Shown here in pieces: positions 4,874 through 46,311 of a stretch of 64,000 nucleotides of DNA. This DNA comes from Fibrobacterota bacterium (GTDB lineage: Bacteria; Fibrobacterota; Chitinivibrionia; Chitinivibrionales; FEN-1185). The stretch lies in NCBI GenBank assembly GCA_003165595.1, contig PLWQ01000013.1:62001-126000 (forward strand), given 5' to 3'. Every line of letters starts with the position of its first letter. Position 1 is the first letter of the stretch. The translations under genes and the position numbers were made by a program. Below the pieces are notes generated by a model, which made no database searches, was not told the DNA's origin, and was given only the letters and a program-made list of their open reading frames with translations.

Positions 4874-6427
4874 ATGAAAAGAGCAGCAGTGTCGTGTCTG
4901 ATGGTGACATTGTTCGCCTGGTCTGGTTTTTCCCAGACCGTCAACATTTGCGGTTCGGTTACGGACCCGAGCGGTAAACCTCTGACCCACACGGTGGTCA
5001 GGTTGGGACAGACAACGCAGGACGTCGGGTACGGGCCGATGCCGTATCTGGTAACCACGGATGCTAACGGCCAGTACCAACTGGGGACAGGGGCCTGCCC
5101 TCCTGTCAACGCACTTAAGGTAAGCAAGGCCGCTCATGGCGACGCATATCCGAAACCGGTGTACGCGGGCGGAAAAGTGCTGTTCAGCGTGCTTCAGGTC
5201 AAGGCATGGGTTAAGATGAGCATGTATGATCTGGCCGGCAGGTTCGTGAAAGACGTGATGAACAGCACGCTGACCAGGGGAAATTACTCCGGATCGATTG
5301 ACACGCGCGGGATTTCGTCACAGTACTATCTGCTTCGCGTGACCGTCAACGGCGCCACAACCGTCTTGAAATTCCGGCCGCTTTCACGCGTTCAAGGCAC
5401 AACCATGGCTCAAAACGTTCCAGAATTCCAAGCCAGGCTCGAAAAAGTCGCAGCCGTGGTGGACACGCTTCACGCAACCGAGCCGGGCTACACGATCGGC
5501 GTCACGCCGATTGACACGTTAGTGGGACATTACGATTTCGTGATGACGAAGACCACCACATGGACCGGCGACAAGGCCGCCATCGCCGCCTTCTGGGGAG
5601 ACACGAGCACCTATCCGAAGAACGGCCAGTACATTATCCTGAACAGGACCAATGGTGCATGGCCGGACAGCAAGGTGTGCTGGGGTGGGGCAAAGACTCC
5701 GCTTTCCACACAGCATATAAAGCCGATCGCCAGCGAAAGATTCTACGTCTATATTGATCCCGCCGATTCCAACAGCAGATATTTTGATTTTCTTGAAGTT
5801 AATTATGGCGGCGGCAGTTTCAATGGTAATTCCACCCGCGTGGACGGATGGAGGCTTCCCATAGCTTTCCGGCTCCATACCTCCACCGGCATCGATACCA
5901 TAATGGGCGACGAGTACGAAACGTTCTTTCAAACGCGCCAGGCGAAATTTGATGAATACCTGAACGAGGTGCCGAAGGAATTCACCCCTCTTGCCAAAGT
6001 AAATTTTGCCAATATCTATTCACCCCAGATGATGGCTGTCAACTATTACAACACAGGCGGCGTATATGCGAATTATTTCGACAAGTATCAGGACTCGGTA
6101 ATTGCTCACAATCCCGGTGCACCTGCCAAAACGACTCCCTGGAATGTTTTGGCCTGCGCGGGTCCATTGGGCGCATCGGCCGATTGGTGCGCCGCATACA
6201 ATAGACACGTCGGAACGCTGCCGCAAGGTGCAAATTTCGCGAACTGGCGCACCAACGACTCCGCATTATACTATCAGACGGCCCCATGTAACTATTTCTC
6301 GAGGTGGTGCCATCGCCGGTCGATAAACAATTACTGCTACGGGTTTGCCTACGACGACGACGGCGGCCACCAGGCATTTATGGGCATTGGCAATGTCCAG
6401 TGGATAGCGGTTGCGATAGGGTGGTAG
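4874..6427 (+). CDS. Secreted GH64-like beta-1,3-glucanase with nested N-terminal modules
   Basis: Start at ATG 4874 follows a purine-rich Shine-Dalgarno (GGGGGAGGG) and gives a signal peptide (MKRAAVSCLMVTLFAWSGFS). The 517-residue protein starts with a carboxypeptidase-regulatory-like beta-sandwich (CGSVTDPSGKP...TDANGQYQL). This appears interrupted by a FlgD/Por-type domain (SMYDLAGRFVKDV...YYLLRV) and resumes at ATEPGYTIGVTPIDTLVG. The C-terminal ~330 residues fit glycoside hydrolase family 64. DFLEVNYGG and TRVDGWRLPIAF place E308 and D324 sixteen residues apart, the same spacing as the catalytic Glu154/Asp170 pair described for the Streptomyces enzyme. NYYNTGG and CYGFAYDDDGG also fit the family. 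It likely cleaves beta-1,3-glucan outside the cell. A terminator follows. Confidence 0.75.
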   Translation: MKRAAVSCLMVTLFAWSGFSQTVNICGSVTDPSGKPLTHTVVRLGQTTQDVGYGPMPYLVTTDANGQYQLGTGACPPVNALKVSKAAHGDAYPKPVYAGGKVLFSVLQVKAWVKMSMYDLAGRFVKDVMNSTLTRGNYSGSIDTRGISSQYYLLRVTVNGATTVLKFRPLSRVQGTTMAQNVPEFQARLEKVAAVVDTLHATEPGYTIGVTPIDTLVGHYDFVMTKTTTWTGDKAAIAAFWGDTSTYPKNGQYIILNRTNGAWPDSKVCWGGAKTPLSTQHIKPIASERFYVYIDPADSNSRYFDFLEVNYGGGSFNGNSTRVDGWRLPIAFRLHTSTGIDTIMGDEYETFFQTRQAKFDEYLNEVPKEFTPLAKVNFANIYSPQMMAVNYYNTGGVYANYFDKYQDSVIAHNPGAPAKTTPWNVLACAGPLGASADWCAAYNRHVGTLPQGANFANWRTNDSALYYQTAPCNYFSRWCHRRSINNYCYGFAYDDDGGHQAFMGIGNVQWIAVAIGW

Positions 6428-36572: not shown

Positions 36573-36582
36573 TTTGTCGGTT

Positions 36583-36765
36583 ATCAAAATTGCATTTCAG
36601 GTGCCGGGGAATACCGGTGAGAATCCGGAGCGGACCTGCCACTGTAATCCCAGTACCGATTCCGTAGAATCGGGGACTGTCAATCCAAGCCACTGTTCCA
36701 TTTGGAATGGGAAGGCGACAGTACCGGGAGAGCCAGGAGACCTGCCTGAATGCTTTCAATTCTTT
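36583..36765 (+). promoter_or_regulatory. Cobalamin (AdoCbl) riboswitch
   Basis: This has the conserved blocks of the class: CCGGTGAGAATCCGGAGCGG, then CTGCCACTGTAA, and the B12 box AGCCAGGAGACCTGCC at 36731-36746. The core ends about 10 bases before the start of the BtuB-like gene, so ligand binding could hide its translation start. It should switch off the corrinoid uptake operon when adenosylcobalamin is plentiful. Confidence 0.95.
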
Positions 36766-36774
36766 TGAGCCCTC

Positions 36775-38913
36775 ATGGTACGGGGTTCAGGGGGGGCTTC
36801 GTTGCATTCTCTTCCCGGGTTCGTTCGTGCGGGGCGCATATCCGTCCTGCTGCTCTGTATGGTACCATATCGGCTTCTTGCCGATAGGAGTGACACGCTC
36901 GTCTCCGATACATCTGCCGCTATTTCGGGAAGCTCCTTGAGGCAGGATTCCGACAAGTCCGCGACGTCTCACCCGCAACGCGCCGAGAAAAGCTCTGATA
37001 CGTCAAGCGTGGTGATCGTTGACAAAATGGTCGTTACCGCCGGCAGGATCAGGGAATACACGCCGTCAAAAGTAACGCTGGATGCGAAAAATTTCTCGGG
37101 CAGGTACATCGATCTGCAATCGGTGCTTGAAACGGTATCCGGCGTAACCATCAGTAACATGGGCGGTTTCGGGCATTATGCGGATGTGTCGATCCGGGGA
37201 AGCTCATCAAGTCAGGTACAGGTGTTTCTTGACGGAATTCCGCTCAACGGCGCAACCGGATACGCGGTGGATGTTTCAAAGATACCTTTGCCGACTTTGC
37301 AAACCATATCGATTTACAAAAGCACGCCATCGATCGAGTTTTTCGGGGAAAATGCTGGAGGGGTCATCAGCCTTTCAACGGATGTAACCAAGGATGCCAC
37401 CACCGCCTCCGTGGAAGTCGGATCATTCGGTTATCGGGAAGGGAGCGCAATAATCAGTAAAGCGCTGGGTCCTATGGTCCATCGGCTGTCTGTTAATTAT
37501 GGGTGGGCGGACAACAATTATCCCTATACGGACAGAGTCATTACGCTCGGACCAACGGTGGCAACTGACGATTCGCAGAAAACCATGGACAACAATTTCT
37601 TTTCAACGTTTTCTTCAATATATTCAAATACCTTCACAATCAATAACCATAATAAGCTAACTTCGCAGTTTTCCGCAATAGTCACCGACGAAGGAATTTT
37701 CTACTTTCCCCAGGCAGGTTCCAACGACGGGAACATACGAAACACAAAATTCTCATTGATTGAATCATACACGAACACGATTAATTCAAACGTTTCCCTC
37801 ACGTTAACCGCAAAAGGGAAAACCGAAGACGACCTGCTGCGAAGGTTCAAGCCTTTTTATTTGACGGCAAGCCCTAATGAGGCAACTTTACATGATATCA
37901 ACCAGCCCTATGGATCGTTGGAAAGCATACTTAAGGGTAATATCAACAATCATGTTGCACTCACCGGCGTATTGACCGCGAGCTATGATGGGTATGATTA
38001 CAACAACCTTCTTGTTCCTGCGGGCCAAACGCAGCCGCGCTATTTCCGCCTCACCGAAAAAACAGGGGTAGAGGCAAAAATCTATTTCTGCAACAATCTT
38101 TCCGGTAGAATCGGCGGTCTTTACAGATACGAAATAGATTCTACCAACGACAGCATAACCTCGTTCGGTTCCTCTGTGCCCTATGGCAAGTCCACAAAAA
38201 ACGGGTTCCCGGCCGGGTTCTCCGAACTGCATTACCAGCTATTCGATTGCCTGGGACTTCTCGCGAGCGTTCAATACGGCAGCCGCAGCCCCGGATTTTC
38301 CGAGAAGTTTTCCGAAGGCGCAAATGTTTCGGGGAATCCGACCCTCCGCCCGGAAACACGGTTGGAATACAATGCGGGTCTATCCTTCCTGAAGCCGTAC
38401 ATGGCCGTATCGGCGGCGTTTTTCGCAAGTACGACGAAAGATAAGATCATTTACACAATGACGTCGCACATGTTTGTTCCGAGGAACGTGTCCAATGTCG
38501 ACGGATGGGGCTTGGAAAACGATATCACGTTAACGCCGTTTTCGTGGGTATCTGTTGTCAATTCGCTGACGTACATGGAAAACACCATGCATTCGAGTTC
38601 CATCATTTCCTGGAACGGAAAAGACGAACCGCTGCTTCCGCGCTTTACGGACAATCTGAATATCAAATTCATGTACAAAAATTTTTATGCGGGCCATTCT
38701 GCCCGCTTCGCTTCCCGCTATTTCACGGACTTCGACAATACCGTTCCGGTGTATAAGGCCAGGCCGCAATTGGACGCCTCCATCGGTTGCACGCTGGGCG
38801 AGCACTTTGATATTTCGTACCGGATCGAAAACTATCTCGATGTTCAGGATTACAATTTTGAGAGGCCGTTGCCGGGACTTGCGCAGTATGCCGTATTGAA
38901 ATGCCGATTGTAA
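36775..38913 (+). CDS. btuB: TonB-dependent outer-membrane receptor for cobalamin
   Basis: A 712-residue protein directly downstream of a cobalamin riboswitch. After a hydrophobic leader and a Ser-rich spacer come a plug domain (~80-200; VVTAGRI, SVLETVSGVTI, VSIRGSSSSQVQVFLDGIPLN, ENAGGVISL) and a beta-barrel with alternating strands to a C-terminal strand (AQYAVLKCRL). This is the BtuB/TonB-dependent receptor layout. It should carry corrinoids across the outer membrane using TonB energy. The start codon is not certain: there is no clear Shine-Dalgarno at 36775, and a GTG near 36826 is an alternative. It is followed by a beta-propeller protein and BtuFDC. Confidence 0.92.
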   Translation: MVRGSGGASLHSLPGFVRAGRISVLLLCMVPYRLLADRSDTLVSDTSAAISGSSLRQDSDKSATSHPQRAEKSSDTSSVVIVDKMVVTAGRIREYTPSKVTLDAKNFSGRYIDLQSVLETVSGVTISNMGGFGHYADVSIRGSSSSQVQVFLDGIPLNGATGYAVDVSKIPLPTLQTISIYKSTPSIEFFGENAGGVISLSTDVTKDATTASVEVGSFGYREGSAIISKALGPMVHRLSVNYGWADNNYPYTDRVITLGPTVATDDSQKTMDNNFFSTFSSIYSNTFTINNHNKLTSQFSAIVTDEGIFYFPQAGSNDGNIRNTKFSLIESYTNTINSNVSLTLTAKGKTEDDLLRRFKPFYLTASPNEATLHDINQPYGSLESILKGNINNHVALTGVLTASYDGYDYNNLLVPAGQTQPRYFRLTEKTGVEAKIYFCNNLSGRIGGLYRYEIDSTNDSITSFGSSVPYGKSTKNGFPAGFSELHYQLFDCLGLLASVQYGSRSPGFSEKFSEGANVSGNPTLRPETRLEYNAGLSFLKPYMAVSAAFFASTTKDKIIYTMTSHMFVPRNVSNVDGWGLENDITLTPFSWVSVVNSLTYMENTMHSSSIISWNGKDEPLLPRFTDNLNIKFMYKNFYAGHSARFASRYFTDFDNTVPVYKARPQLDASIGCTLGEHFDISYRIENYLDVQDYNFERPLPGLAQYAVLKCRL

Positions 38914-38999: not shown

Positions 39000-40673
39000 A
39001 TGAAACACATTGCGGGACTAATCATTGCGGTCGCCGGTATTTCAATCTTTGCTCAAATTAATATTACCGGTACGGTAACCGAAGCAATACACGGCTCACC
39101 CGTGGCAGGCGTTGTGGTGACCCTCAAGAGCGGCGCCGTAGGTGCGGACACAAGCGATGCGAAAGGACAATATAAGTTGACAACAGCGACTCTGGTCCGG
39201 GGTCGCCCGGCCCAGGCCACTCTTTGGTCGTCGGCAAGAATCTGCGGCAATGTGTTGCGTTTTGCGGTATCGGACGGGGCGCCGCTTTCGATAGAGATAT
39301 TTAACGCACACGGCACAAAGTGCTTGACGCTGTTTCGCAACAGCAGTCCGGCAAAAGGCGACTATACCGTAGGTCTTGCCTGTGGCGGCCTGGCGGAGGG
39401 AATATATCTGATTCGTGTCACCCAAGGTTCCAAACAGACAGTCCTTCGTACAACAGTTCTATCCAAGGGGGTTCCCACGGTGGGCATTGCGCCCGATCGC
39501 GCCGGCGCCGGACTTGCGAAAAAGTCGGATGCAGCAGTCAATGACACGCTGCTGTTTGCTAAAGCCGGTTTTAAGACCGCTGCGGTCCCGATTTCGGCAT
39601 ATACCGGATCAACCAATGCCGTTCTTCTGGATTTGGCGGCATCCCAGTCAATTGTGTCGGTCGGCATTTCCGCTGACTATTCCGCGGGAAACATGGGCCA
39701 GTACGACATCTTGAAGGGAACGTCGAATGCCAACCTTCTCACGATTTATTCCGACAACGATGTTCGCGCGTTCGATGGTTGCTTGTACGTGCTTGAGCGG
39801 TATGGGAAGGATAATCTGCTTAAGATTACCGGTTCAACTATTTCCAACTCAACCGTTGCCTACGAAAAAAACATCGGGGCATCAGTTAACATACAGGACA
39901 TAGCATGCATCGATACAACCAAGGCATATATCACTCAACTTGGAAGCGCCCAGATAGTTATTTTCAATCCTTCAACGGGCCTGAAATCAAGCAAGACTAT
40001 CGATCTGTCCGCTTTTGATACGTACGCGGTAACAGACAGCGCCGACGTTGTTCCCTACATGACCAGGGCATTGCTCTATAACGGTAAAGTGTATGTCGCC
40101 TGTCAACGACTTCATGCGCCTGTTGGCGGGTTCATTCAAGCGGCCGATACGAGCAAAATCGTCGTGATCAACGCAACGACGGACAGCGTCGAAAAGGCCA
40201 TTAACCTGCTGTACAAAGACCCGCAGGAGTTGTACATTTTCAATGGAAAGCTCTATGTTGCCAGTGTGGGCGTATGGGGCGTTGGAGATGCGGGCATCGA
40301 GGCAATCGATCTGGCGACGGACGCGAGTGCCGGGTCGGTGGTTACCGAATCGGAATTTTCGGGCGATGTAGCATCGGTTGTGGTGGTGAGTGACACGAAG
40401 GGATATGCGGTTATCTCGGATTTGTCGACCTTCACGACGTCATTGTATTCCTTCAATCCCCAGGCGAAAACCGTCGGTAGCAAAATCACCGGTATTGACG
40501 CGCCCTGCAGCGGGCATATTGCCTTTGACGGCACGTATGTGTATGTGGGTGACCGCAGCAGCACATCTCCGGGAATCGTGGTTATCAATCCTGCGACTGA
40601 TGCGAAGGTTGGCACGACAAAGAACATCGGTTTGCCACCCAATTCTCTGGCGTTGCTGGAAACAACCAAATAA
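39000..40673 (+). CDS. Surface beta-propeller protein of the B12 operon (BtuG-like role inferred)
   Basis: ATG 39000 follows AAGGAAGGAA. The 557-residue protein has a signal peptide, a carboxypeptidase-regulatory-like domain (GTVTEAIHGSPVAGVVVTLK) interrupted by a FlgD/Por-type domain (IEIFNAHGTKCLTLF...GIYLIRVTQG) that resumes at LLFAKAGFKTAAVPISAYTG, and then ~340 residues of YncE-like propeller blades (VRAFDGCLYVLERYG, LLYNGKVYVACQRL, LYIFNGKLYVASVG, IAFDGTYVYVGDRS). In Bacteroidota a propeller protein, BtuG, sits next to BtuB and binds B12 at the surface. The gene order and fold suggest the same role here, but with a different N-terminus and no lipobox. Confidence 0.75.
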   Translation: MKHIAGLIIAVAGISIFAQINITGTVTEAIHGSPVAGVVVTLKSGAVGADTSDAKGQYKLTTATLVRGRPAQATLWSSARICGNVLRFAVSDGAPLSIEIFNAHGTKCLTLFRNSSPAKGDYTVGLACGGLAEGIYLIRVTQGSKQTVLRTTVLSKGVPTVGIAPDRAGAGLAKKSDAAVNDTLLFAKAGFKTAAVPISAYTGSTNAVLLDLAASQSIVSVGISADYSAGNMGQYDILKGTSNANLLTIYSDNDVRAFDGCLYVLERYGKDNLLKITGSTISNSTVAYEKNIGASVNIQDIACIDTTKAYITQLGSAQIVIFNPSTGLKSSKTIDLSAFDTYAVTDSADVVPYMTRALLYNGKVYVACQRLHAPVGGFIQAADTSKIVVINATTDSVEKAINLLYKDPQELYIFNGKLYVASVGVWGVGDAGIEAIDLATDASAGSVVTESEFSGDVASVVVVSDTKGYAVISDLSTFTTSLYSFNPQAKTVGSKITGIDAPCSGHIAFDGTYVYVGDRSSTSPGIVVINPATDAKVGTTKNIGLPPNSLALLETTK

Positions 40674-40734: not shown

Positions 40735-41640
40735 ATGAAACCTTTCTGCTCATTACATATCTTGGCGGTAGGCATTTTGATTGCAACCGTTATTGGATGC
40801 TCGCATAACCGGCAGGAGCAAGCGCCGGTCATGCCGAAACGGATTATTTCCCTGGCGCCAAGCATAACGGAAACGCTGTTTGCTCTGGGGCTTGGCGATC
40901 GGATTGTCGGTATTACCAGATATTGTACGTATCCGGCGCAAACAAAAAGCATTGAAAAAGTAGGCGGTTACTCCGATGCCAATCTTGAAAAGATCATTGT
41001 TTTGCGCCCCGACCTTGTCGTGCTCTTGCGGGAGCATGAAAAACAACAAAGCTACCTGAATCGATTCGGGGTAAGCACGCTTATGATTGACAATTCAACC
41101 TGCGCGGCGGTTTGCAGTTCCTTTGCTCTTATCGGAAGGCGTTGCGGCGTGACTCATGCATCCGACAGCTTGATTGGATTGTTCCATGTGCAATTGACAC
41201 AACCTACTCACGGGCAAACAGCACGCCCAAAGGTGCTGTTATGCGTGGGACGCGACAGCCCCGGCGCGGGGGGAATAAAAAGCATCTATGCGGCAGGGAG
41301 AGGATCGTATTATAACGACCTTGTTGAATCTGCCGGAGGAACAAATGCCTTTTCCGACAGCGCGCCAGCCTACCCCCGCTTATCGGCGGAAGGAATTCTG
41401 ACACTCTTGCCCGACATCGTGATCGATGTTGCTCCGGCAATGGGCAACTACAATTGCAGTTCGCTTGTTGCAGATTGGAATTCAATGAACCGAATCCCTG
41501 CTGTAAATAACAAGAGGGTTTACTGCATGGGAAAAGATTATGCAACCGTGCCCGGGCCGCGCATGCTTCTGCTTCTCGACGACCTGAAGCGAATTATCGC
41601 GGATACCAACGGGACCTATCGGGAACACCGTTCCTTATGA
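40735..41640 (+). CDS. btuF: Cobalamin ABC transporter substrate-binding lipoprotein
   Basis: Start ATG 40735 gives a lipoprotein signal ending in VIGC. The ~301-residue protein is a cluster-A-type binding protein of the BtuF/FhuD class: RIISLAPSITETLFALGLGDRIVG, TRYCTYP, VGGYSDANLEKIIVLRPDLVV and the long linking helix. It would bind corrinoids in the periplasm and pass them to BtuC. Its stop overlaps the start of the ATPase gene (ATGA), so translation is probably coupled. Confidence 0.93.
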   Translation: MKPFCSLHILAVGILIATVIGCSHNRQEQAPVMPKRIISLAPSITETLFALGLGDRIVGITRYCTYPAQTKSIEKVGGYSDANLEKIIVLRPDLVVLLREHEKQQSYLNRFGVSTLMIDNSTCAAVCSSFALIGRRCGVTHASDSLIGLFHVQLTQPTHGQTARPKVLLCVGRDSPGAGGIKSIYAAGRGSYYNDLVESAGGTNAFSDSAPAYPRLSAEGILTLLPDIVIDVAPAMGNYNCSSLVADWNSMNRIPAVNNKRVYCMGKDYATVPGPRMLLLLDDLKRIIADTNGTYREHRSL

Positions 41641-42446
41641 ATACACCGACACCTATGATTCAAGTCCACGACGTCCGCGCCGTGTACGGTCCCCATGAGG
41701 TATTGCAAGGAGTTTCTCTTGCCGTGGAACGAAATCAGCGCTGGGCCATCATCGGACGCAACGGCGCCGGAAAATCCACCCTTATCAAGCTTATCGCGGG
41801 ATTATTGCATCCGAACAAAGGAGCGCTTCAGGTCAACGGCATGGAGGCGCGGCGATATTCTGCACGCAAGCGGGCGCAGATCATGGCGTATGTGCCGCAG
41901 AAGCCCGACGGCGTAATCCCTTATTCGGTGCATGATTTTGTCATGCTTGGTCGCTACAGCGCAATGGGACTTATGGGCATGCCGTCGCACAAAGATCGCG
42001 AAGCCGTCCGCGAAGCAATTGATATATGCGATATCCATCATCTGGCCGACCGCCTGATGAGCACGCTGTCCGGCGGCGAATTGCAACGGGTGCTTCTCGC
42101 GGGCGCAGTCGCTCAGCAAACGCCGCTGCTGTTACTCGATGAGCCGACCACATCTCTCGACCCGGCTCACGAACGGCTCTTTTTTGAAGCCCTCGGCCGT
42201 CTTCATGAACAGCGGGAATTGACGATTGTCATGGTAACGCACGATATCAATACCGCTCTTGTCCAGTGTACGCATATAGGTGCGCTGCTAAACGGGCATT
42301 TTATCTTTGCCGGCAGTGCCGGTGAATTCAAGAAACAATGTCCCGCGGTCCTTGAGGAAATATTCAAGGTTCGCTTTGAACGCTATGTCTGGAGTGAGGG
42401 AAAGTCGGAAGCGTTTGGCGCGTGGGGGGTGTCATGTCCGGAATAA
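41637..42446 (+). CDS. btuD: Cobalamin ABC transporter ATPase
   Basis: A 269-residue ATPase with Walker A GRNGAGKST, signature LSGGELQR, Walker B LLLLDEPTTSLD and switch His VTHD. The sequence type is that of FecE/BtuD iron and corrinoid importers. It overlaps btuF by 4 bp and btuC by 13 bp, so the three form one translated unit that powers uptake of corrinoids through the inner membrane. Confidence 0.93.
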   Translation: MNTPTPMIQVHDVRAVYGPHEVLQGVSLAVERNQRWAIIGRNGAGKSTLIKLIAGLLHPNKGALQVNGMEARRYSARKRAQIMAYVPQKPDGVIPYSVHDFVMLGRYSAMGLMGMPSHKDREAVREAIDICDIHHLADRLMSTLSGGELQRVLLAGAVAQQTPLLLLDEPTTSLDPAHERLFFEALGRLHEQRELTIVMVTHDINTALVQCTHIGALLNGHFIFAGSAGEFKKQCPAVLEEIFKVRFERYVWSEGKSEAFGAWGVSCPE

Positions 42447-43429
42447 AGAACCCTGTGGGTGCAGTGGCGATTTTATCGCTCGCGACAATAGTAACGCTCA
42501 TTGTTTGTCCAATGATCGGGATCAAATGGATTTTGCCTTCAAATATTGCGAATGACAGCGACCTTCGATTTGTCTTCCTGACAATGAGACTTCCACGAAC
42601 GCTTGTTGCATTTTTCGCAGGAGGCGGGCTTGCCGTTGCGGGAATGATTTACCAGGCCCTATTCCGCAATCCCCTTGCCGATCCGTATACGCTGGGCGTT
42701 TCGAGCGGAGCGTCGCTTGGCGCTGCGTTGTGCATCGTTCTTGGAGCCGGAGGCTCGGCTTTTGGACTGTCGATCGTGACCCTCGGAGCTTTCGCCGGAG
42801 CCGTAGGATCGATACTCATTATTTACACCTTTGCCTGGTCGAAAGAAAGTAACTCCAGCACACTGCTTCTCGCCGGCGTTATCGTGGCGACATTGTGCTC
42901 AGGCCTTATCATGTTTCTAAATTTTATCGGCGGGCTGAACCAGTCTTTCCAGATTCTCCGCTGGATAATGGGGGGCGTTGACGGGGCAAGCTACTCGCTG
43001 TTCTTTATTATGGTGGTGCCGCTGGCTGCATTCTTCGCCATCGCCGGGATACTCATGCCGCAGCTCGACCAGTTCTTGACAGGGGACAATATCGCGCATT
43101 CGCGTGGAATAAACATCCGGGCAAGCAGGAATCTGTTTATCGTCATCACCGCCCTGGCGGTAGGGGCTATTGTTGCGATATGCGGCCCCATAGGATTCAT
43201 TGGGATACTCGCGCCCCACGCGGGCCGTATGATGATTCCCGGAGTGCGGCACCGGCTTCTTTCTCTATGCTCATTCTTATTGGGTGGATCCTTTCTGGTT
43301 CTTGCCGATACGTTGGCGAGATCCGTTGTGCCCCCGTCCGAAATCCCTGTCGGAATAATTACTGCGATGTTGGGAGGACCATTCTTCTTGCTCGTGCTAT
43401 TCCGAAGCAAAAATCGGTTGTTGATGTAG
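42434..43429 (+). CDS. btuC: Cobalamin ABC transporter permease
   Basis: ATG 42434 has GGGGGGT just upstream and is preferred to the GTG at 42422. The ~331-residue protein has about ten hydrophobic helices and FecCD-family landmarks: RLPRTLVAFFAGGGLAVAG, FRNPLADPYTLGVSSGASLGA, GPIGFIGILAPH and PSEIPVGIITAMLGGPFFL. It forms the inner-membrane channel with BtuD and docks BtuF. Confidence 0.94.
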   Translation: MSGIKNPVGAVAILSLATIVTLIVCPMIGIKWILPSNIANDSDLRFVFLTMRLPRTLVAFFAGGGLAVAGMIYQALFRNPLADPYTLGVSSGASLGAALCIVLGAGGSAFGLSIVTLGAFAGAVGSILIIYTFAWSKESNSSTLLLAGVIVATLCSGLIMFLNFIGGLNQSFQILRWIMGGVDGASYSLFFIMVVPLAAFFAIAGILMPQLDQFLTGDNIAHSRGINIRASRNLFIVITALAVGAIVAICGPIGFIGILAPHAGRMMIPGVRHRLLSLCSFLLGGSFLVLADTLARSVVPPSEIPVGIITAMLGGPFFLLVLFRSKNRLLM

Positions 43430-43440
43430 GTAAGATTTCG

Positions 43441-44973
43441 ATGAACAACACAAAGAGCATAATGATACAAGGCACCGCAAGTTCAAGCGGGAAATCGCTG
43501 ATTGTTACCGCGCTCTGTCGCATCTTGCATCAGGATGGATATCGGGTTGCGCCGTTCAAAGCCCAGAATATGTCGAACAACTCCTTTGTAACAGCCTCCG
43601 GGCTTGAAATGGGCCGCGCGCAGGTCGTGCAGGCGTATGCGGCCGGTCTTGAGCCTGACGTGAGAATGAACCCCGTGCTTTTGAAACCGTCAGGTGGTAC
43701 AGGAGCACAGGTTGTTCTTAAAGGCAAACCGGAGTTTACGATGAACGCGAAAGAATGGTATGAAACCAGGGAACGGTTACGAGGTACAATTCGCCAGTGT
43801 TATGACTCGCTTGCGGCCGAATACGAAATGATTGTTATCGAGGGGGCCGGCAGTCCAGCCGAAATCAATCTCAAAAAGAACGACATTGTCAACATGGGCA
43901 TGGCAAAGATGGCGGATGCTCCTGTTCTTATCGTGGGTGATATCGATCGCGGTGGAGTATTTGCGTCGCTGGTAGGGACTATGCAACTGCTCGATCCCGA
44001 TGAACGTGCTCGTGTCAAGGGATTCATCATCAACAAATTCCGCGGCGACGCGGGGCTGCTCAAGCCTGGCCTCGACGAGTTGGAAAAACTCGCCGGAGTT
44101 CCTGTTCTGGGGGTCGTACCGTGGCTAGACCACGCGATTGACGATGAAGACGGCGTGGCGGAGCGATTTACCAGAGAACATTCCGGCTCGGCGGACGTTG
44201 ATATTTGCGTAGTACGCCTACCGCATATTTCCAATTTCACCGACTTCATTCCGCTTGAAGCAGTGCCCGGCGTCAGGGTACGCTGGTGCGAAACGAAAGA
44301 ATCAATCGGATCGCCCGACCTTCTCATTCTTCCCGGCACAAAGGCGACTATCGTCGATTTGCAGGCGGTAAGAAAAGCCGGGATAGCGGAGGAGATCATT
44401 CAATATGCACATAGTGGCGGCACCGTTGTAGGCATATGCGGCGGGTTTCAGATGCTTGGCGGCACGATAGCGGATCCGGCGCATGTCGAAAGCGCGGCGG
44501 TAAGCGAAAAGGGACTGGATCTGCTCGACATGGAAACGGTATTTAATGCTGAAAAAAGGACAGCTCAGGTGACCGCCGCGATAGACGGAACATGCTCATG
44601 GTTGCTTGCAGGCATTGATCGCGTCGAAGTGCGCGGGTATGAAATTCACATGGGGGAAAGTCGCTATGGGCCGTCAAGCGTGCCTTTCACCCGCGCTGTC
44701 GATGGATTGGGGCAGGGAAGCGTGACCGGTGCTGCGGATGCGTCGGGCCGCATTCTGGGCACCTATCTTCACGGTTTGTTCGATACCGGCGTTGTGGTAT
44801 CGGGTATGGTAAACGCGATAAGGGTTAAAAAGGGTCTGCCGGTACTTGATGCTGCTGTTGTCGACCGTCAAAGATTGCTCGTTAATGATCTGGATCGCCT
44901 TGCAACGGTGTGCAGAAATAGCCTTAACATGAATCGTATATACGAAATTATTCGGGAACCGGCGGTAGTGTGA
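43441..44973 (+). CDS. cobQ: Cobyric acid synthase (glutamine-hydrolysing)
   Basis: ATG 43441 (11 bp after btuC) gives 510 residues. The N-terminal ATP-binding domain starts with IQGTASSSGKS and has APFKAQNMSNNSFV and LLKPSGG. The C-terminal glutamine amidotransferase domain has the nucleophile Cys in GICGGFQMLGG and a YEIHMGES/YLHGLFD ending. The enzyme amidates four side chains of adenosylcobyrinic acid a,c-diamide to make adenosylcobyric acid. Its place behind the transporter suggests that imported incomplete corrinoids are finished in the cell. Other late genes (cobD, cobU, cobS, cobT) are not in the window. Confidence 0.95.
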   Translation: MNNTKSIMIQGTASSSGKSLIVTALCRILHQDGYRVAPFKAQNMSNNSFVTASGLEMGRAQVVQAYAAGLEPDVRMNPVLLKPSGGTGAQVVLKGKPEFTMNAKEWYETRERLRGTIRQCYDSLAAEYEMIVIEGAGSPAEINLKKNDIVNMGMAKMADAPVLIVGDIDRGGVFASLVGTMQLLDPDERARVKGFIINKFRGDAGLLKPGLDELEKLAGVPVLGVVPWLDHAIDDEDGVAERFTREHSGSADVDICVVRLPHISNFTDFIPLEAVPGVRVRWCETKESIGSPDLLILPGTKATIVDLQAVRKAGIAEEIIQYAHSGGTVVGICGGFQMLGGTIADPAHVESAAVSEKGLDLLDMETVFNAEKRTAQVTAAIDGTCSWLLAGIDRVEVRGYEIHMGESRYGPSSVPFTRAVDGLGQGSVTGAADASGRILGTYLHGLFDTGVVVSGMVNAIRVKKGLPVLDAAVVDRQRLLVNDLDRLATVCRNSLNMNRIYEIIREPAVV

Positions 44974-45007: not shown

Positions 45008-45023
45008 TGGTATGACCATACCA
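45008..45023. promoter_or_regulatory. Perfect palindrome upstream of the Dph6-like gene
   Basis: TGGTATG-AC-CATACCA is a 7+2+7 inverted repeat in the 124-bp gap between cobQ and the next gene. It could be an operator or a small hairpin; no bound protein can be named. Confidence 0.35.
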
Positions 45024-45097
45024 TGCGCGGGAATTGCGATCGCCTGGCTTGCTCTCCGGAACGGGTTGGTTTTGCAATGATGGAAAATGGAGGTTGT

Positions 45098-45799
45098 ATG
45101 ACGAAAAACTCCTCTGAACAAGTTTCACGATTTTTTTGTTCTTGGAGCGGCGGCAAGGATTCGTGCCTGTCATTGTACCGCGCTCTAAAACGCGGATATT
45201 CCTGTGCCTCGCTTTTTACCATGATTGACGAGTCCGGAAAGCACTCACGGTCGCATGGATTGCTCCCGGAATCGCTCAAAGCGCAGGCTGAGGCGATGCA
45301 AATTCCATTGCGTACAGCCGCTGCAACATGGGGAAACTATGAGTCGCAATTCAAGGAGCAGGCGGCACTCTATAGAAACGAAAATGTTCGGCACGGCGTA
45401 TTCGGCGATATCGATCTCGAACCGCATCGCGAATGGGTTGAGCGGGTGTGCCGTGAGTCTGGGATTACTGCTCATTTGCCGCTCTGGAAAGGCGTTCGCC
45501 GAACACTGGTTCGGGAATTCATTGATGCCGGATTTAAGGCGGTCATCGTGGTAGTGAATACGAAGAAGATGCCCGACCGGTTTTTGGGACGTTTGATTGA
45601 CGCCGCGCTTGTTGATGAGCTTGAAGCAATCGGAGTTGATGCCTGCGGTGAGAACGGGGAATTCCATACCTTTGTTTACGACGGGCCGTTGTTTAAAAAG
45701 GGGCTCATCTTTGCTAAAGAAGATGAGATTGCAATTGAAGGATATGCATTTCTGCGCATCACTGTTTCGGGCAATTCCGACAGGGGGGTATGTTCATGA
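45098..45799 (+). CDS. Dph6-like PP-loop ATP pyrophosphatase in the B12 operon
   Basis: A 233-residue protein (start ATG 45098 with GGAGG upstream; ATGs at 45077 and 45080 are alternatives). The PP-loop is SWSGGKDSCLSLYRA. The C-terminal part has GENGEFHTFVYDGPLF, the second hallmark of the diphthine-ammonia ligase (Dph6/MJ0570) family. These enzymes activate a carboxylate with ATP to make an amide. Bacteria lack diphthamide, so the substrate must differ. Being between cobQ and cobO, with a 4-bp overlap into the latter, it may act on a corrinoid or its precursor. That is inference. Confidence 0.82.
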   Translation: MTKNSSEQVSRFFCSWSGGKDSCLSLYRALKRGYSCASLFTMIDESGKHSRSHGLLPESLKAQAEAMQIPLRTAAATWGNYESQFKEQAALYRNENVRHGVFGDIDLEPHREWVERVCRESGITAHLPLWKGVRRTLVREFIDAGFKAVIVVVNTKKMPDRFLGRLIDAALVDELEAIGVDACGENGEFHTFVYDGPLFKKGLIFAKEDEIAIEGYAFLRITVSGNSDRGVCS

Positions 45800-46311
45800 A
45801 AGGATACGTCCAGGTGTACACCGGCAACGGCAAAGGAAAGACGACCGCAGCGATCGGATTGGCGATCCGGGCGGCAGGGGCGGGGCTGCCGGTTTTCTTT
45901 GCTCAATTCGTCAAAGGCATGAAATACAGCGAAATCGGTGCACTTGAAAGATATGCCGATTTGATTGCTGTTCGACAATATGGTCGGGGCTGCTTTATTA
46001 CCCGTGAAGCCGATAAAGAAGATGTAGAACAATCACGGAAAGGGCTTGCTGATAGTGCAGAAGCGCTAAAGACGGGCAATTATCGATTGGTAATACTGGA
46101 CGAGGCATGCATTGCCATTCATTACAAACTGTTCAGCATCGATGATCTCCTCCAAGCGATTGACAGAAGAAAAGCTGATTGCGAAGTCGTAGTAACCGGC
46201 CGTTATGCACCCCAGGAGCTGTTGGATATGGCTGATCTGGTGACGGAAATGAAGGAGGTTAAGCACTATTATGCGAAAGGCGTTCAAGCTCGGACGGGAA
46301 TCGAGCGATGA
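45796..46311 (+). CDS. cobO: Corrinoid adenosyltransferase (CobO/BtuR type)
   Basis: ATG 45796 overlaps the previous stop (ATGA) and is well spaced from GGGGGGT. The 171-residue protein has the P-loop YTGNGKGKTTAAIGLAIRAAG, FAQFVKGMKYSE, LVILDEACIAI and VVTGRYAPQEL. This is the CobO/BtuR family. It transfers the adenosyl group from ATP to reduced corrinoid to form the coenzyme, and so supplies the riboswitch ligand. A GC-rich hairpin follows. Confidence 0.94.
   Translation: MKGYVQVYTGNGKGKTTAAIGLAIRAAGAGLPVFFAQFVKGMKYSEIGALERYADLIAVRQYGRGCFITREADKEDVEQSRKGLADSAEALKTGNYRLVILDEACIAIHYKLFSIDDLLQAIDRRKADCEVVVTGRYAPQELLDMADLVTEMKEVKHYYAKGVQARTGIER

Follow-up and report, generated by a model that had tools for sequence, protein, structure and literature searches.

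BtuG has been published as a protein exclusive to Bacteroidetes (PMC6143338) and as absent from other users of BtuB (PMC12751083). The B12-binding face of BtuG2 is negatively charged (PMC10404256). Two other kinds of propeller are also comparable. XusB (DUF4374; PDB 9HQK, 9HQE) is likewise a surface propeller beside a TonB receptor and captures a ligand for that receptor, and the YncE/YVTN proteins (E. coli YncE 3VGZ, archaeal 1L0Q) have the same seven-bladed YVTN-type propeller fold. Among the papers searched, none brings a beta-propeller together with a cobalamin riboswitch.

The stretch of DNA analysed here (the window, 64,000 nucleotides) is part of contig C6 of a 5.4 Mb genome in 42 contigs. 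The closest named relatives of this genome are Chitinivibrionales/Chitinispirillales MAGs, which places it outside Bacteroidota, as a sequence-only reading of the window had stated. The product of the gene at 39000-40673 is quite probably a propeller of a BtuG-like family that captures corrinoids on the outer surface, a binding and a location that we infer.

The riboswitch-controlled B12 locus

An Rfam scan located a cobalamin riboswitch (E 2.8e-17) upstream of a run of genes on the plus strand, in the order btuB, propeller gene, btuF, btuD, btuC, cobQ, diphthamide-synthase-like ATPase and cobA. The element heads this operon, in agreement with the riboswitch control that had been read from the sequence. 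The features are:

36582..36763, +, cobalamin riboswitch (RF00174, 77.2 bits; sole copy in the genome)
36775..38913, +, btuB-like TonB-dependent receptor, plug plus barrel (Plug, TonB_dep_Rec; best B12-specific model TIGR01779, E 1e-22)
39000..40673, +, BtuG-like propeller protein, whole gene, 557 aa (ORF)
40735..41640, +, btuF, periplasmic B12-binding lipoprotein (domain and family profile matches)
41637..42446, +, btuD, ABC ATPase (domain profile match)
42434..43429, +, btuC, FecCD permease (domain and family profile matches)
43435..44973, +, cobQ/cbiP, cobyric acid synthase (family model above cut-off)
45023..45799, +, diphthamide-synthase-like ATP pyrophosphatase, PF01902 (profile matches; recurs in the B12 loci of relatives)
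45790..46311, +, cobA/btuR, corrinoid adenosyltransferase (domain and family profile matches)

The propeller gene starts at ATG 39000, with the ribosome-binding-like GGAAGGAAA immediately 5' of it, and TTG 38982 is a less likely start. A cobM/cbiF equivalog, the single marker of de novo synthesis checked, was not found above cut-off in the genome, which agrees with salvage of corrinoids. The PF01902 ATP pyrophosphatase recurs in the B12 loci L037, L050, L052 and L055, where its neighbour is often cobA or cobQ, and may represent an enzyme of cobamide salvage that is still uncharacterised.

The propeller protein has three parts, residues 1-19, 20-214 and 215-557:

39000..39056, +, Sec-type signal peptide MKHIAGLIIAVAGISIFAQ, without a lipobox Cys (sequence; lipobox rule negative)
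39057..39641, +, nested module, a CarboxypepD_reg-like domain split by a Por_Secre_tail-like domain at 39282-39449 (profile matches; about 30 paralogous modules in the genome; low-confidence model)
39642..40670, +, seven-bladed beta-propeller, DUF5074/BtuG-like (predicted structure, profiles)

In the nested module, CarbopepD_reg_2 matches residues 22-62 and Por_Secre_tail residues 95-150, the latter domain lying within residues 86-150 (20.1-20.7 bits), both under the curated cut-offs, and this weak pattern repeats across the genome. The structure model of the module, built from two input sequences, is poor (pLDDT 45). No C-terminal T9SS sorting domain at or above cut-off was found in the propeller protein. 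The AlphaFold2 model of the propeller, built with ten relatives, has a pLDDT of 87.4, a pTM of 0.89 and 28 strands.

Occurrence in Fibrobacterota and in other phyla

Homologues of the propeller were found in 132 of the 168 genomes of the phylum by a single-sequence search and in 155 of the 168 by a profile search, a number obtained from the genomes that were listed as lacking a match. For the gene-neighbour check, 40 loci were sampled across the families of the phylum. In 38 of these loci the propeller has a BtuB-like gene as its same-strand neighbour; one of the two exceptions is cut at a contig end, and the other (L056) is a stand-alone second copy. A cobalamin riboswitch was found in 30 of the 35 loci scanned with Rfam. 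Of the five riboswitch-less loci, four are truncated: their contigs stop at btuB, inside it or a short way upstream of the propeller. The remaining one is again L056. The riboswitch stands directly upstream of btuB in nearly all loci of the phylum, and 3.2 kb upstream in L045. The adjacency of btuB and propeller expected by the sequence-only reading is thus conserved in the phylum, where homologues do not occur mainly away from btuB. The riboswitch linkage rules out a chance propeller in a B12 locus. A recent horizontal transfer into this genome is ruled out as well, because 155 of 168 genomes of the phylum have the propeller. Searches of plasmids with the propeller yielded no match.

Two variants of the gene were also seen. 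The second copy at L056 (7906-9066, minus strand, genome G039) encodes a stand-alone lipoprotein paralogue on a 13-kb contig without btuB or riboswitch. In L078 (2964-4070, plus strand) and L079 (7902-9032, plus strand), which belong to two genomes from separate families, the propeller's opening two segments, of about 30 and 33 aa, have changed places, which looks like a local blade permutation or a common assembly artefact.

Beyond the phylum, 37 of 224 sampled genomes match the profile at E<=1e-10, and the 16S identity of the out-of-phylum genomes to the phylum of the window is about 73-81%. Each of the 14 best loci has a BtuB-like receptor in the cluster and is preceded on its strand by a cobalamin riboswitch. 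Among the remaining homologues, 21 of 23 are preceded, on their own contig and strand, by a riboswitch no more than about 6 kb away, so that 35 of the 37 are downstream of a cobalamin riboswitch. An adjacent BtuB-like receptor was found in 15 of the 20 remaining loci examined, and a few second-tier homologues do not adjoin btuB. Whole-phylum searches of three small disjoint phyla, which are not Bacteroidota because they are so small, found the propeller in 7 of 7, 3 of 4 and 30 of 47 genomes. At least three further non-Bacteroidota phyla therefore carry the BtuG-like propeller family. The restriction to Bacteroidota published for BtuG does not extend to this family, which is present in genomes on the Fibrobacterota side and in at least three small phyla. 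DUF4465 (BtuJ) is also multi-phylum (PMC13398666).

Some loci have other arrangements. In L136 and L138 (genomes G249 and G390, of one family), the riboswitch is directly upstream of the propeller gene, and btuF comes next after the propeller in L136. No BtuB-like gene was found near either locus, so that in these genomes the propeller may do without a TonB receptor. Two tandem propeller genes occur in each of the riboswitch-controlled B12 loci L113, L135 and L151.

Relation to BtuG and the putative binding face

The propeller model was compared with 350,542 PDB chains by Foldseek. The 15 best matches are exclusively BtuG1, BtuG2 and BtuG3 (E 1.3e-14 to 5.6e-12, TM 0.68-0.74 by query length). 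XusB follows at ranks 16-21, below all 15 BtuG entries, which sets the propeller apart from the XusB-type siderophore propellers, and 1L0Q and YncE come next. The comparison of the propeller family with BtuG2 by hhalign gave 97.3% and E 2.1e-11. When a sequence profile of 32 homologues was searched against the PDB, BtuG chains were matched at about 1e-11 with a single long stretch of about 43 bits over blades 3-5. The nominal top match of this search is 1L0Q, with a score that sums short repeats of 15-24 bits. The Pfam domain DUF5074 is matched above its cut-off of 27.2 by BtuG2, with 73 bits, and by the window propeller, with 39 bits. These structure and profile comparisons agree with the BtuG-like propeller recognised by the sequence-only reading, and they point to homology with BtuG and not to convergence. 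The same reading had suggested a convergent or transferred capture protein; as a peculiarity of this genome, this is not supported, since the propeller is near-universal in the phylum and occurs in further phyla, and the comparisons speak for homology with BtuG.

The top and bottom of the propeller were assigned from the strands of the model, the top being the edge of the D-A and B-C loops; residues are given in propeller numbering. Near-invariant residues lie at the top edge in 15 of 21 cases, against 43% of positions (Fisher p=0.011). The mean conservation of the loops did not differ significantly between the two faces (p=0.47). In 26 of 32 homologues, the negative charge is greater on the top half than on the bottom half (p=0.002, an optimistic value because the sequences are related). 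The residues D12, D38, R53, D57, N83, Q155, N193, G241 and P333 form a signature that is present in most or all of 15 out-of-phylum proteins; the window propeller carries Asp at the position of the near-universal Asn193. Where the alignment is trustworthy, this signature is mostly absent from BtuG2. In the hhalign alignment, the BtuG2 pocket residue Trp194 is aligned with Gln155 of the propeller and Trp272 with Val243, and the pocket residues are not kept. Corrinoid binding is a candidate function of the propeller.

The propeller could have another role in the B12 locus, for instance as a periplasmic chaperone, as a gate for BtuB or as a binder of some non-corrinoid ligand, and resemble BtuG in fold only. 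Beta-propellers are versatile, the next-best structure, XusB, is a propeller that binds siderophores and sits next to a TonB receptor, and the pocket tryptophans of BtuG2 are not conserved. However, nearly all out-of-phylum homologues are downstream of a cobalamin riboswitch, and BtuG stands above all other propellers in the structure search and, by single-stretch score, in the profile search; such a role is improbable. A further alternative is that generic YncE/YVTN propellers were recruited repeatedly to B12 loci and became similar to BtuG by convergence. Two second-tier homologues, L142 and L153, are indeed YncE/YVTN-like (they match TIGR02276 and YNCE), and the conserved residues are unlike those of BtuG2. 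In contrast, the first-tier homologues of several phyla have one in-register top-face signature, and the alignment of the profile with BtuG is one long stretch over blades 3-5. We regard repeated recruitment as unlikely, although less so than another role in the locus.

By the tests applied, the propeller family is a sister family to BtuG and not strict BtuG, because its conserved top-face signature differs from BtuG2. Strict BtuG membership of the window protein is ruled out by the failed lipobox and pocket tests. The family has the fold, the locus and the face in common with BtuG and a different pocket chemistry, and it is predicted to work like BtuG.

Surface anchors and the proposed route of capture

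The strict lipobox rule was passed by 33 of 39 homologues of the phylum, one of them, L058, probably because its start is misassigned. Among the others, most have lipobox-like ends by eye (LSAC, LSGC, MTAC, LVAC), and VQHC of L034 is borderline. The propeller family looks ancient, because it is near-universal in the phylum, is normally a lipoprotein and stands under cobalamin riboswitches in further phyla. The window copy fails the lipobox rule and so lacks the lipobox plus LES of BtuG as a surface lipoprotein; the absence of a lipobox had already been noted from the sequence. A signal peptide and the nested module replace the lipoprotein leader, as the different attachment module proposed at that time implied. 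The copies of the same genus (G031) and the same family (G032) are lipoproteins with 65-71% identity in the propeller, and the anchor exchange in the window lineage is for this reason predicted to be recent. These two copies also allow the reading that the fusion at the N-terminus arose as a chimera of the assembly or MAG, the true protein being a lipoprotein like its counterparts in the sister genomes. This is very improbable. The ORF runs uninterrupted within a contig of 228 kb and has a proper signal peptide and ribosome-binding site, and its module is only about 30% identical to the nearest paralogue, which argues that it is not an assembler-stitched copy.

The nested two-domain N-terminus described by the sequence-only reading is present, with matches under cut-off, but it is not specific to B12, since about 30 mostly secreted proteins of the genome carry the module. 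In the cases checked, the module is mostly straight behind the signal peptide, on GH30, GH64, esterase/Fib_succ_major and other proteins. It also occurs in the window at 4940-5542 (plus strand) and at the genome loci L082-L101. The SprA/Sov translocon was found in the genome (434.7 bits, cut-off 200) and also in relatives. The module has weak similarity to the T9SS type A sorting domain (TIGR04183/PF18962), which has C-terminal forms on out-of-phylum homologues, whereas the version of the window is inside an N-terminal CarboxypepD_reg domain, is not C-terminal and stays under the cut-off. No Por_Secre_tail-like domain is known to serve as a T9SS signal from a position other than the C-terminus. 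In this SprA-bearing genome, the module can be read, tentatively, as a T9SS-type domain in a nested, N-terminal version. Among the out-of-phylum homologues, a C-terminal T9SS type A sorting domain above cut-off was found on L108, L109, L111, L142 and L153, a FlgD_ig-like domain on L106 and L117, and a lipobox on L105 and L114. The capture domain is predicted to be tethered in at least three ways, because a lipobox, a C-terminal T9SS domain and the nested module are each seen on homologues.

With this N-terminus, the window copy could instead be a released corrinoid scavenger, the counterpart of a hemophore, that has lost its lipid anchor and uses the nested module for secretion and not for attachment. 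The missing lipobox, the same module at the head of the GH30, GH64 and esterase proteins, which are likely extracellular, and the SprA translocon agree with this reading. On the other side, BtuG requires proximity to BtuB, and a Por_Secre_tail-like domain suggests the T9SS, which commonly attaches its cargo; release is possible and rather doubtful.

In the preferred reading, surface capture, low adenosylcobalamin would let the riboswitch permit expression of btuB and the propeller gene. From homology and context, the propeller would be exported and placed over or beside BtuB, would capture the corrinoid on its negatively charged top face and would hand it over to BtuB. Transport over the inner membrane would then fall to BtuF and BtuCD, and remodelling of the corrinoid to CobQ and CobA. 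In this genome, the lipoprotein leader appears to have been swapped for a signal peptide and a generic nested CarboxypepD/T9SS-like module. Because the leader is replaced by the generic secretion-type module of the genome, the protein is probably held on the surface, or released, through the route of the secreted enzymes of the cell, with a presumed dependence on the T9SS. On balance, we favour an ancient, multi-phylum family of corrinoid-capture propellers, sisters of BtuG with a conserved binding face of their own and BtuB partners in many bacteria outside Bacteroidota, whose modular surface tether has repeatedly switched between a lipid anchor, a C-terminal T9SS domain and, here, an N-terminal nested secretion module.

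Riboswitch-linked BtuG-like propellers in a second whole phylum and in other phyla suggest that B12 is probably captured at the cell surface by far more bacteria than the literature describes, with several kinds of tether. Gram-negative bacteria probably use surface-assisted uptake of B12 as a general strategy, and this would change the modelling of B12 competition in rumen, termite-gut, soil and sediment communities. For mutagenesis, the family supplies a set of conserved residues; its members could also serve as corrinoid-binding reagents, and their changes of surface anchor amount to a natural experiment on the partner of a TonB receptor.

Compared with known systems, BtuH and BtuJ (DUF4465) are likewise accessory surface B12-binding lipoproteins of riboswitch-controlled btuB loci, and their folds are unrelated to propellers. 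The YncE/YVTN proteins differ from the window propeller by a weaker structural match (E 1e-8 to 1e-10), weaker single-stretch profile scores and the lack of a B12 context. XusB has a siderophore as ligand, is a weaker structural match (E 2e-11 and worse) and is absent among the listed matches of the family sequence profile; the part of the XusB source consulted describes no cobalamin riboswitch. BtuG differs in that the window protein is from outside Bacteroidota, has a structure-based identity of about 14-19%, lacks the lipobox and carries the nested N-terminal module, and in that Trp194 and Trp272 of BtuG2 give way to another set of invariant top-face residues in this family. BtuG (BtuG2/BT1954, BtuG3, BtuG1; PDB 3DSM, 8BMY, 8BAI, 8OKV, 8P97) is nevertheless the best structure and profile match, with the same seven-bladed propeller, the same location beside btuB under a cobalamin riboswitch, a negatively charged face and an exported protein.
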